Virus record (IMG/VR): IMGVR_UViG_3300049460_000121
Location: 124,001-188,000 of that record
Direction: 5' to 3' (one strand)
Length of the DNA: 64,000 nt
Source: a virus
In this document: positions 14,763-63,600 of the stretch, piece by piece
How the letters are laid out: each line of letters starts with the position of its first letter
How positions within the stretch are numbered: position 1 is the first letter of the stretch
Program-made: the position numbers and the translations under genes
The notes under the pieces: generated by a model
What the model saw: only the letters and a program-made list of their open reading frames with translations
Databases searched by the model: none
Told to the model about the DNA's origin: nothing

Positions 14763-17700
14763 ATGGCTAAGAAAGAAACAGTCAATTTCGACGATCTAAA
14801 CCTCGACGACATTGACTTTGGGGGCGACTTCGATTTCAACACGGACGGTGAAATCAAGTTTGATGCGGATGATAGCCGCTCTCCAATTGAGTCGTTTACC
14901 ACGTCTGTAAAAGATGGCCTGAAAGACCGAATCATGGACCGTGGTCTGATTCGTCGCCTTATGTCGTTCGCACTTCCGAAGGGCTATAGCCAGGCATTCA
15001 ACGCATACGATTCCTTGTCGAACGGTGTCGCCGACATCTACAAGGATAATGCGGCTGAAATGCAGCCGTACATGGCCAAGACCAGCCGCTTCCTCAAACA
15101 GCAAAATCCGATGTTCAAACGGCTGTTGCCGAAGAATGCTCGGCAGGCGTTGGAGGACAGCGAGAACGAAACCAGTTCGTGGTCAGGTGGTCAGGACGAC
15201 AAGCTCAGCCAGGACATCGGTGGCATTGATAAGTTGCTTGGGATGGAAGCCCGCAACAAACTCGATGACAACATCAGCGATGCTCGTCGTGAGGTTCGTG
15301 CTCGGAAGGAATTCAACACCACCACCGGCATCTCCATCGAGATGGGTAAGGCGATCGGTCGTCTGGTTCAATACCAAGACACCGTACTGATCAACTACCA
15401 CCGGAAGTCGTTGGAACTGAAGTACCGCCACCTCGATGTGTCGATGCGGATGTTCCACGGCGCTGAAGTGTTCCACAACGATTCCCTCGACTTGATGAAG
15501 GCGATCGGTAAGAACACCGCGTTGCCTGACTTCGTGAAGATGCGCAACACGGAGATCATCAAGGAACAACTCCGTCACCGTTTGGCGAACAACGTCATCG
15601 GTTCGGCCAGTAACTTCGCCAAGAAGCATTTGGGTTCGATCAAGGACAACCTGAGTCAATCGCTGGGTGGAGCACTTGGCACCATCAGCATGGCCAACTC
15701 CATGGGCGGTGGGATGTCGCGCTCTGCGATGGCCGGTCAAGCCGCAGGTGGTCTGGTTTCTGATGGCCTGGGTGACTTGCTGGAGTTCGCGATTAAGGAA
15801 GGGTTGACCAAACTCGGCCTTGGCAAACAAGCCGGGATGGTGAAGGACGGTGGTCGTTGGCTGCAAGACAAGCTCTCGGGTACGTCGCAGCGTCTGAACG
15901 ATTATGCTCGTAGCGAAACCAATTCCACCGGTTTGAAAGGTCAGTTCGAAGATTGGGCCAAGCGTCAACTCGACTCTTACTCGATCACGGACAAGATCAA
16001 CGGTGGTGGCGTTTATGCCCTCGATGAATCGGCCAAGTTCGACAACCTGTTCCATAAGACAGTTGTCGAGATCATTCCTGGTCAATTGTCCTCCATGGAG
16101 AAATGGCTTCGTACCATTGCCACGGGTGAGCAGCAAGACGAACATGCGTACAGTCATTACACGGGCGGCTTTGTTACTCGTGATGTGCTGAACCAGCAAC
16201 ACGTCGACATCGGCTTGAAAGCAGGTGCGGGTGACGCGGTTCGTAAGCAGCTCGACTACCAGCTCAAGGACATGGAAGCTGAAAGCCTGAGTCCTAAAGC
16301 GCGCCGTGCTCTGCGTGCCCGTCTCATGACGGACATGTCGAGTAACCGTGACTTCAACCCGAAGACCTACGTCAAACCGGACACCTGGACCAACGCTGCG
16401 CCGGAAGTCGCTGAGGAGCTGGTAGAGTTCTTCGCTGACAAGTACGGCATCAATATCGACGGCGAGTACGACGATAGCGATGAAGTGGCTAAAGACCTAC
16501 GTACCAAGGCGCGTGCTGGGTACTTGGACTTGGCTCCTCGTATCACCGACTACACCAGCCGTATGGCAGGTCTGTCTGAAGTGATCGGTCGTCGCTCCTG
16601 GCGTGAGCTGGGTCTGTCGAAGTATGACGGACGTAACGGCGACACCATCGACACGAACGCGATCTACGACAAGATCGCTAACGAAGGTGGTGACGAGTTC
16701 ATTGATGATCGGAAGGAGGAAGAGAAGCCCGAAGACTTCACTTGGTCGAAACAAGGTCTGAAGGACGGGATCAATGCCCGTGCTGACTTGGCTCGTAAGA
16801 AGCTGGCAGAGAAGGAAGCTGAGCAGAAGCGTCTCGAAGAGAAAGCGGCGAAAGCGGCTGCTGGTCTGCGCGTGGACGTGGATGGAGGCAAGACCACTCC
16901 AGGTGCCAAGGTTGGAGCTGCTCCAGCTCCCGTGATTGTAACCGGTCAGTTCAGTCTGGATCCTATCAGCATTAATCTGCTGACCAGTTCCCTGAGCGAA
17001 GTGTTGACTCAGTCCGGTGCTGGTCAATGGGAAATGACGCTGCCTGAAGTACTGGAAACAGTCGACGGTGGAACTCACGAACGTCTGGACGCTATCCTCG
17101 CCGCGGTGAAGGAGATCGATCCATGTGGTTGTGAAGGTCGTTCCCCTGGCGGACGCGTTGATTTCAACCTCGTTGAGAACGCTGCCTCTGCTCGCGATTA
17201 CGTTACCAAGCGTTATAAAGACGCTAACCTTCCTGCCCGTTGGGACATGGCTCGTGGTTACGTGACTGATCGCTACGATGAGTTCGGGATGCCTGAACGC
17301 ATCGATCAAGCACGGGGTTATGTCGAAGGTAAGTTTGACGAACACAACGTCAGAGGTCGTATCACTGACGCTCGCGATCAGGCGATGAGCAAGTACCATG
17401 GTCTCGACATCCCTGGCCGTATCGCCGATGCCCGTAATAAGGCGCAGGAGCAGTGGGATGGCTTTGACGCACAGGGTCGGCTGGATGCGGCTCGTCAGCG
17501 CGTTGGAGAGTTCGACGCCCAAGGGAAGTTAATAACTCTCGGCGATAAAGCCCGCGCCAGGTACGATGGGTTCGATGCGCAAGGGACGCTCGACAACGTT
17601 CGTGGACAAGCCGGCGAGATGTGGGACCAGATGGATGCTCGCGGCCGTGCTGAGTCTCTACGAGATAAAGCGCTAGGCAAGTGGGATGAGCTCGACGTCA

Positions 17701-60459: not shown

Positions 60460-60650
60460 TCACCCGGAGAAGTTTGCGTAATAAAAGCTCCCCCTCCTGA
60501 ACACAGTTAAGAGCACTAGGGACACTCACTTCGTTCGTTGTCTATACGTTCGTTTCGTTCGCCCCAGGCTCACTACACTCACTTAGCAAGAATTAAATTA
60601 GTTCATCTGATGACTACAGTTTGTAAAAAATTACGTCAACAAAATAGAGT

Positions 60651-60674
60651 AGGAGTGGGCCGAAACCCACTCCT
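60651..60674 (-). terminator. Hairpin terminator after the portal-like gene
   Basis: AGGAGTGGG (60651-60659) pairs with CCCACTCCT (60666-60674). The minus-strand flank ACTCTATTTTGTTG is T-rich. Confidence 0.75.
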
Positions 60675-60686
60675 CTCCAAAGGGAC

Positions 60687-63600
60687 TTATGACTTCGGTT
60701 TGCCAGGCTCGCCAAGGTCGATCGTCAGATCGTCATCCTTACCGTCCTTCTTACCTTTCTTGTCATCCTTGTCTTTCTCATCGTCCTTCACTGCTGGTGC
60801 TTCGCCCAGATCAAGCTTGAGATCCTCATCCGTTACCTCAGGCTCAGCTTTCTCCTCAGGTACTTCAGGTTCTTCCAAGTTGATGTTGAGATCTTCTTCA
60901 CCTACCGCAGGCTTCTCACCACCCTCTTCCGGAACTTCCTTCCCGTCAACTGGAGGCTCATCCAGATTGATGTTCAGATCAGTATCGGCTTCAGCTGGCT
61001 TGTCACCCTCAGGCGCCGCAGCAGCGTCGTCAGCAGCCGCAGGCACTTCTGGTGCATCAACGGCAGGCTCAGGAGCTTCTGCTGTCTCAGCGCCTGCTGG
61101 AGCGTCCAGGTTGATAGCCAAGTCATCACCGCCAGCTTTAGCCGCAGCGTCATCAGCCGGAGCTTCTGCGTTATCGGCAGTAGCGTCGGTAGTCTCAGCT
61201 GCCGTGTCGGCGGCGGCATCAGTGTTGGTGTCGGTGAGTGCGTCGCCGTTAGTGTTAGCATCAACACCGTCGTTCGCATCCCCCAAGTCCATACTGAGAT
61301 CGTCCTGACCATCGCCGTTTGTATCGCCACCCAACTCGTCAGTCACTTCAGGCACGTTACCGTTAGCCAGATCCTGACCACCGCCGTAGCCGTCCTCAGC
61401 CGCGTTCTCGTCCACAGGCTCTGCGGTGAGTTCTTCCAGCATCTTCTGTGCCTTGTCGATCTCATCCACAGTCTTCGCTGTAGTCTTCTTACGCTTGACC
61501 GCATCCAGAGCCACACGCTTGGCGTAACCGCCCACAGACTTCATTACCGCTTCGACGTGGTTAGACATCTCTTCGGTCAAGTCCATCATCGGGCTACCGT
61601 CTTCAACCGAACTGAAGACATCCAGTTCGCGCAGGATGCCGCGCTTACGCATCCAGGCACGCAGGATGACACCTTTCCAGGCTGCTACGACCGAGGTCAT
61701 GGCTTCCTTGATCTTGTCAGGCGCGTAGCCGTCGAAGAACTCTTCGGTGATGTAAGCAGGCAGAGCCTTGTCCAGAGTTTCGCTGAAGTTGTTGAACAGT
61801 TCCATCTGCTTGGTCAGGTTGTCGTTCTCAGGAGCCGGCAACTTAACAGTCAGGTTGTTCAGGAACTCTTCCAGGAAACCTTCTGGATCGGACTTGTACT
61901 CATCAGGCAGGTACTTAGCGTTCTGCTCGATGATGTCCATCAGCTCACCGATGAGGATGCCCGAGTTGTACGTGAAGATACGTACGTAGTCGGTCAGCAT
62001 CGGGTTGGTCTTAGCCTGGATCACCATCACCCGCTTTTGCAGCATCAGGCTGTTCTGCACAGCTGTGGTTGCAAACTCAGGCTGGTTGACGTTGTCCACC
62101 ATTTCAGGCGTCAGACCGAATACCCGCGTCAGGTCATCGCGCAGCTGCTGTTGCAGCTCGTTGTCGATCTGGGCGAAGGTGGACTCACGCGGCGAGATGG
62201 AAGTCTTCACTTCAGGGAACCGAGGGTTACCCGTTACGTTGACCGAGAAGGACGACATCTGGAGTTGCTCAGCCAGACCCACAGTCGAACTGATCGCCAT
62301 CGGGAACTGGTGATACGCCAGACCCAACGCTTCGTTCGCCATGAAGGTCGCAGTGCCCAGTGGGTCACCGTCATCTTCAGGCAGCTCGATGTTGATGTCT
62401 TTACCAGGGATCGCGTTCTTGGTCGAACCAATTACGTTGGCCACGGTAACAGCAGCACGCATTGCAGCGAGCGACTTGGCATCTTCCAGGATCGACTTAC
62501 CGATACCAAACTCGTTGTACTCGTAAGCCATGTAGATCATGAGCTCAGCAGGTACGTAAAGCATGGTGGTCAGTTGGTTCTTCATTGTCCGTGCAAACAT
62601 CAGACGGTCAATGTGTTCAGTGTGAGACAACTCGAAGTCGCCACCCATCATGCCGGTACGGAACCGAGCCACGATGTCAGCATCGACCAATTCAGCGTGC
62701 AGGTCAGCCAGACGATCGATCTGGGAGTTCGAGGCGTTGGCAATGCCACCAACGATCGCTTCCTTCGACATCTGGATGAGTTCACCAGCCACACCACCCG
62801 AGTTACCGGCGTTGTCACTACCGCCACTACCGCGACGAATGTCATCGTAGTAGTTCAAGCGGCGAGAGTAGCTGATCGGATAACCGTTAGCGTCGAGTAG
62901 GATAATGTACCCAACGTGGTTGGATTCATCACCCGGTACGCAGACCGGCATTACCGCTTCGGTGGAGAGGTGATACTCGAGCGGGTGACCACAGTTACCG
63001 CCACCAGCTTGCTTGCCGCTAGGCACCACCTGGAGGCGGCTACGGCGCACTTGTTGCGGCTGGCGGTAGAACTTGTTGTAGATCTCGGAGTTACCCGGAG
63101 CATCTTTCTGGTTGTCTGCCCGACGTTGACGCTTACGTGCTTCAAGCGATGGAGTGCCATAAGCATTTTCCATCACACGGCTACGTTTCATCTTCTGCAC
63201 TGCCGGAGTACGGAGCACAGCCATGTTGTCAGTCACACGAATCGGCAGAGAGACCTTCTTCTCGCCGTTCTTTGTCTTGATTGTATGATATTCAGCCATG
63301 GAGCTTTGGTTGATGCGACCGCTGGCGGACTCCAACGAAACGTAGGCGTCGCCGTTAGCAGTCGGCACGCTGAGGCCGAAAATACCTTTGGGTTTGTACC
63401 ACCCATCGACAAACTCACCACCGTACGAGCTGATGGATTCCATCGAGGCGTCGTTGTCACCCAAGACCAATCGGTCGAGTGTGGCTTCTGGAATGATGAG
63501 AATCGGGTGAGCACCAGACCAGATAAGGGCGTCGTCTACCCACTCGGCAACCTTGGTATCTGTCTTCTTCGTTGTAATGAAGAAGTTCTCGAGGTTCTGA

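Follow-up and report, generated by a model that had tools for sequence, protein, structure and literature searches.

In SPN3US, phiKZ and 201phi2-1, the portal is shortened by removal of a long N-terminal propeptide, 254 aa in the case of SPN3US, and the known cleavage rule is (A/S/G)-X-E (PMC5694885, PMC10052503). Anchoring of ejection or core proteins by a portal extension was suggested by the SPN3US authors, but the extension they meant was the N-terminal propeptide (PMC5694885). In P22, the C-terminal domains of the portal are placed as pointing into the head (PMC4992974), and in phiKZ the inner body assembles ahead of packaging and is anchored within the capsid (PMC13282480). The portals phiKZ gp129, PhiPA3 gp148 and SPN3US gp81 have a homologous core, an acidic low-complexity C-terminal tail and a divergent gp128-type neighbour, as does the locus described here. 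Their tails, however, are about 100 aa long and lack the six-copy DLxIxL array found at this locus, with a single DLDLDL in the SPN3US tail and DxFGG-type words prevailing in phiKZ relatives. No description of an array of such kind on a portal was found in the searchable literature.

A phiKZ-type portal with a long acidic tail

The window, that is, the whole 64,000-nucleotide stretch analysed, belongs to a virus record of 267,467 bases and contains a 1083-aa ORF that matched 9xpe_M (PHIKZ129, the solved phiKZ portal) with an E value of 7e-90 in phmmer, as well as two further chains of the same kind as 9xpe, one of them named portal. PHROG 3004 (head and packaging) matched aa 30-930 (E 2e-175), and the sequence matches included phiKZ-like phage proteins of structural or portal type. 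9xpe_M was also the first Foldseek match to the predicted model (E 1.6e-17), with T4 gp20 far lower; since the AlphaFold2 model is of only modest confidence (mean pLDDT 50.6, pTM 0.30), the sequence match carries the weight of the assignment. A phiKZ gp128 homolog, 33% identical to PHIKZ128 over 618 aa (E 1e-110), adjoins the gene on the opposite strand, an arrangement as in phiKZ. Based on these matches and this neighbour, the protein that a sequence-only reading had called portal-like belongs to a phiKZ-like phage and is its portal, the ring protein used for DNA packaging; both sequence and fold search give 9xpe as its nearest match.

S-L-E or a close variant occupies the position of SLE266 in most of 45 aligned portals, and the phiKZ and PhiPA3 portals have a conserved (A/S/G)-X-E near residue 260, so that SLE266 would fit a propeptide cut of this type. 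At the other end, the ORF finishes in a real stop codon followed by a terminator-like hairpin (Table 1). A small TTCG-repeat cluster, TTCGTTCGTTGTCTATACGTTCGTTTCGTTC, lies at window 60530-60560, past the portal terminator and before the following gene, and is present in a single copy in the window and genome.

Table 1. Features of the portal gene and its C-terminal tail (window positions; residues of the portal in brackets).
Feature	Position	Strand	Basis
phiKZ-type portal protein, 1083 aa	60687..63938	-	phmmer, PHROG, fold search, gp128 neighbour
Conserved S-L-E (aa 264-266), putative prohead-protease site closing a long N-terminal propeptide	63141..63149	-	alignment and (A/S/G)-X-E rule
Last long helix before the tail (aa 787-838), putative crown position	61425..61580	-	AlphaFold2 secondary structure, modest confidence; crown by analogy
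Acidic disordered C-terminal tail (aa 839-1083)	60690..61424	-	charge, pLDDT
Motif copy 1, DLSMDL (aa 880-885)	61284..61301	-	conserved in L001, L002
Motif copy 2, DLAINL (aa 939-944)	61107..61124	-	conserved in L001, L002
Motif copy 3, DLNINL (aa 987-992)	60963..60980	-	conserved in L001, L002
Motif copy 4, DLNINL (aa 1016-1021)	60876..60893	-	conserved in L001, L002
Motif copy 5, DLKLDL (aa 1039-1044)	60807..60824	-	copy-specific KL kept in 3/3 phages
Motif copy 6, DLTIDL, C-terminal copy (aa 1070-1075)	60714..60731	-	counterpart of DDLDLDLPTPPKA ending the DT01 portal
Intrinsic-terminator-like hairpin directly 3' of the portal stop	60651..60674	-	10-bp stem AGGAGTGGG..CCACTCCT and T-rich tail; consensus match only

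The tail of about 245 residues is predicted by AlphaFold2 as all coil, with pLDDT <50, from about aa 839 to the end, which is DDDLTIDLGEPGKPKS. The acidic character ascribed earlier to positions 60687-61310 therefore holds, but the tail starts slightly upstream of that interval. Its last 234 residues contain 71 D/E against 16 K/R (net charge -55), Ala, Gly and Pro are abundant, and the motifs account for at least 12 of this segment's 16 leucines. The six motifs announced from the sequence are all in place (Table 1) and have in common the core D-L-x-(I/L/M)-(D/N)-L, whereas the longer consensus (E/D)DLxIxLxEP stood in part: xEP is found in copies 3, 4 and 6, but copies 1, 2 and 5 read DLSMDLGDA, DLAINLDAP and DLKLDLGEA, and T takes the place of (E/D) before copy 3.

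Short motifs with alternating hydrophobics in a disordered segment, as in the array, are also known from plant EAR (LxLxL) repression and bacterial sliding-clamp-binding hexapeptides; the clamp-type Gln (Q-L-x-L-x-L/F) is missing from the portal array, where Asp leads 6/6 copies in three phages. The C-terminal tip of SSB (DDDIPF type) is likewise a short hydrophobic-acidic end of an acidic disordered tail that docks partners. It is alike in principle to the portal tail but not homologous, having one tip per tail and no DLxIxL repeats, and the portal lacks the acidic -PF end. The window phage has a separate SSB-like ORF outside the window (G000 85026-85859, minus strand) that ends in the classical acidic tip FDDDIPF, and the same tip is found in the record G001. 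In the record G003, a 199-aa ORF (123080-123676, minus strand) ends in the SSB-tip-like EFDDDDFEPL, and another ORF about 2 kb away ends in FDDDVPL.

Constraint on the six-copy array

In 20,000 composition-preserving shuffles, 19,804 gave no copy and 196 gave one, as compared with the six observed. The portals of two IMG/VR contigs, L001 and L002 (91% and 87% identical to that of the window phage), carry all six copies at matching places. Across the three phages, 24/24 anchor positions are invariant versus 95/191 linker positions (Fisher p 2e-7), and the hydrophobic anchors are invariant at 18/18 positions versus 5/15 for linker hydrophobics (p 3e-5), these p-values covering one small clade because the three phages are close relatives. 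Synonymous divergence is 0.35-0.51 and about equal in motifs and linkers, while pN/pS is 0.08-0.29 in the motifs against 0.40-0.42 in the linkers; the linkers also gained or lost stretches of 20-35 alignment columns, and the copies stayed. Since the anchors are invariant despite a synonymous divergence of 35-50%, the array motifs are under selection and are not random acidic sequence; chance or composition as their source is ruled out by the shuffles together with the invariant anchors.

The copies differ in their codons, and several retain residues of their own at variable positions in all three phages, such as the KL of copy 5. This rules out a recent duplication and indicates a stable array that is old in relation to these three phages.

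The strong negative charge, the one feature common to nearly all tails examined, would suit a tail that is no more than an acidic brush, fending packaged DNA off the portal mouth or drawing in basic proteins, with motifs that are incidental. Charge alone, however, leaves the 18/18 invariant hydrophobic anchors and the C-terminal peptide described below unexplained, and we disfavour this explanation as very improbable. The tail could also be a removable assembly device that binds the scaffold or the prohead protease and is cut off at maturation. Extensive processing after (A/S/G)-X-E is known for phiKZ-like head proteins (PMC5694885, PMC10052503), and 3/3 array phages have retained one APE-G site that lies between copies 2 and 3; but the tail holds 9 (A/S/G)-X-E sites versus 8.9 in shuffles and is thus not enriched, and only the N-terminal propeptide was found removed from the SPN3US portal (PMC10052503), which makes such a device just as doubtful as the brush.

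The C-terminal peptide in related portals

A profile search of IMG/VR yielded 34 loci, and a tree of 45 portal cores placed the window phage in a 13-row clade beside an 18-row clade containing the Pseudomonas phage pPa_SNUABM_DT01. The array was found only in the window phage, L001 and L002, and portals at 51-64% identity have acidic tails of about 100 aa without it; the array is therefore not essential to a phiKZ-type portal. This distribution also speaks against the peptides folding back on the portal or its neighbours, as a crown lid or plug or as a latch between subunits, because portals with 51-64% core identity either lost the array or never acquired it. Weak self-binding would become effective with twelve copies in close proximity, and the 9xpe phiKZ portal is listed with 633 residues of an 896-residue chain, close to the 634 expected if cut after E262, so that part of the phiKZ tail could be ordered; AlphaFold2, however, places no segment of the present tail confidently (monomer, shallow alignment), and we regard self-docking as quite improbable.

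Many relatives have a single acidic-hydrophobic peptide at the extreme C-terminus, among them EDDLELPDIEPPKLK, HDDLELPDIDLPKL, QDDLDLPDIEVPKL, LDDLDLDAPKV, SDDLSPPKL, EDDLDIPPAP and the DDLDLDLPTPPKA of DT01. The DT01 portal (QTH80236.1) is about 36% identical overall and has a long acidic tail with DLDLD repeats, that is, with another repeated word, and its last copy alone lines up with the array. Of 33 dereplicated portals, 11 have a strict peptide pattern within their last 18 aa, versus 1.1 on average and 7 at most for shuffled tails (2000 rounds), a figure somewhat optimistic because the pattern was chosen after the ends had been seen and related phages are not independent; 5% of internal 18-mers have the pattern. 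In the phiKZ, PhiPA3, Noxifer, L060, L061 and L069 portals, the terminal peptide is absent or unrecognisable.

Other lineages have repeated words of their own, only some of them significant: DLDLD in DT01 (8 acidic-hydrophobic words versus 1.1 expected), DLDMDF-like in pVa-21, DDLPP in LAh10, and DxFGG, read by eye, in Noxifer and kin. Words similar to the array are also repeated in the pVa-21, SPN3US and LAh10 tails. The portal tails of L048, L049 and L051 present a different low-complexity solution, being 436-457 aa long and mostly made of DPVDP/DADPNADP repeats ending in LPDNPxPKV.

It had been proposed that relatives with merely random acidic sequence would speak against the motifs. The array is indeed gone at 51-64% identity, but many of those portals and many in the more distant clade keep the terminal acidic-hydrophobic peptide, and the copy-number comparison gave six copies persisting in L001 and L002 and one terminal copy in many others. 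Ancestrally there was probably just one copy, located at the extreme C-terminus, which the window lineage multiplied into the six-copy array. Invariant anchors, fast-changing linkers and a C-terminal copy traceable through the clade all support the multivalent docking-type tail first suspected from the sequence, and a docking role of the array is well supported as a class of explanation.

Candidate partners of the array

The proposed search for the motif in other virion proteins came out negative in the same genome, where matches were scattered and single and no repeated form was found in another likely virion protein. The C-terminal form of the motif is on the portal only in G003, and in G001 it is on no other protein among the ORFs lying whole within the scanned pieces. 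A DNA-pattern scan of IMG/VR for the motif recovered the L001 and L002 portals, one very short frame (L020/L022) and an unrelated acidic protein (L019/L023); with the copy-5 pattern, L001 and L002 alone were recovered. The unrelated protein is a 652-aa phage product (L019 9162-11117) that contains EDLGLDLEEP and has no PHROG match. No relatives were found in bacterial and archaeal genomes, and a gene-content approach to the partner, taking genes of G001 that G002 and G003 lack, left too many candidates to be informative.

The 2658-aa giant protein, which bears a transglycosylase, had been noted for an N-terminus weakly similar to the array. The peptide there, FDDLNLDDIDF at window 14787-14819, is real and deeply conserved: across eight compared sequences, the window's own included, it is kept as an IDLDxLxLDDFDF-like peptide in homologs with identities down to about 27-30% over the first 400 residues (e.g. 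IDLDNLGLDDFDFDIPEW), and it is more widely conserved than the portal array. Because it lacks D-L-x-h-(D/N)-L, however, it is a different motif and is kept apart from that of the portal. Its conservation suggests a docking peptide of its own, and a partner common to both is possible.

The phage nucleus offers another docking site, since the tail might bring the portal to the ChmA shell or a ChmB-like shell protein before or during head assembly. PhiPA3 portal gp148 binds ChmB directly and reaches the shell by itself before capsids are made (PMC10643120), and the window phage encodes a divergent ChmA homolog outside the window (G000 92554-93846, minus strand; E 2e-10, 25% identical to PhiPA3 gp53) and is therefore probably nucleus-forming. 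However, the PhiPA3 portal binds ChmB yet lacks this motif, no statement was found on which portal region binds ChmB, and docking for packaging is expected on the outward, clip side of the portal. ChmB (PhiPA3 gp2) had no match in seven records, those of the window phage and six relatives, in a search run without a positive control. On balance, we consider docking to the nucleus unlikely.

We therefore favour, at somewhat short of an even chance, that the array tethers an internal head protein at the portal vertex during prohead formation. The portal C-terminus would emerge from the crown, which is the end that faces into the head, and continue as an acidic disordered tail, in which the six peptides would serve as docking sites and the flexible charged spacers would keep them extended and soluble. 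A twelve-subunit ring, as suggested by the 12 chains of the 9xpe phiKZ entry, would offer about 72 weak sites. The peptides may dock into a hydrophobic groove of some internal head protein (a core or scaffold, inner-body or ejection protein), which would thus be recruited or anchored at the portal vertex while the prohead forms. The scaffold, packaged polymerase or inner-body protein suggested from the sequence alone stay candidates for this role. From the P22 portal, phiKZ inner-body, propeptide and ChmB papers together with SLE266, we infer that the tail lies within the head and that its peptides, as many as 72 per ring, would hold a protein of core or inner-body type.

A wider generalization, to which we give a rather low probability, is that phiKZ-like portals as a group have multivalent sticker-and-spacer tails, in which the motif is swapped between lineages (DxFGG, DLDLD, DLDMDF, DDLPP, DLxIxL) and co-evolves with its partner, recruiting the head core via weak multivalent, possibly condensate-like contacts with no folded interface.

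How inner-body, ejection and polymerase proteins are placed in jumbo-phage heads, and how the portal vertex is defined in so large a capsid, are poorly understood. A short selected peptide that can be fused to another protein and used as bait offers a direct route to the partner, and the array would show a conserved assembly function carried on a disordered tail despite sequence drift.
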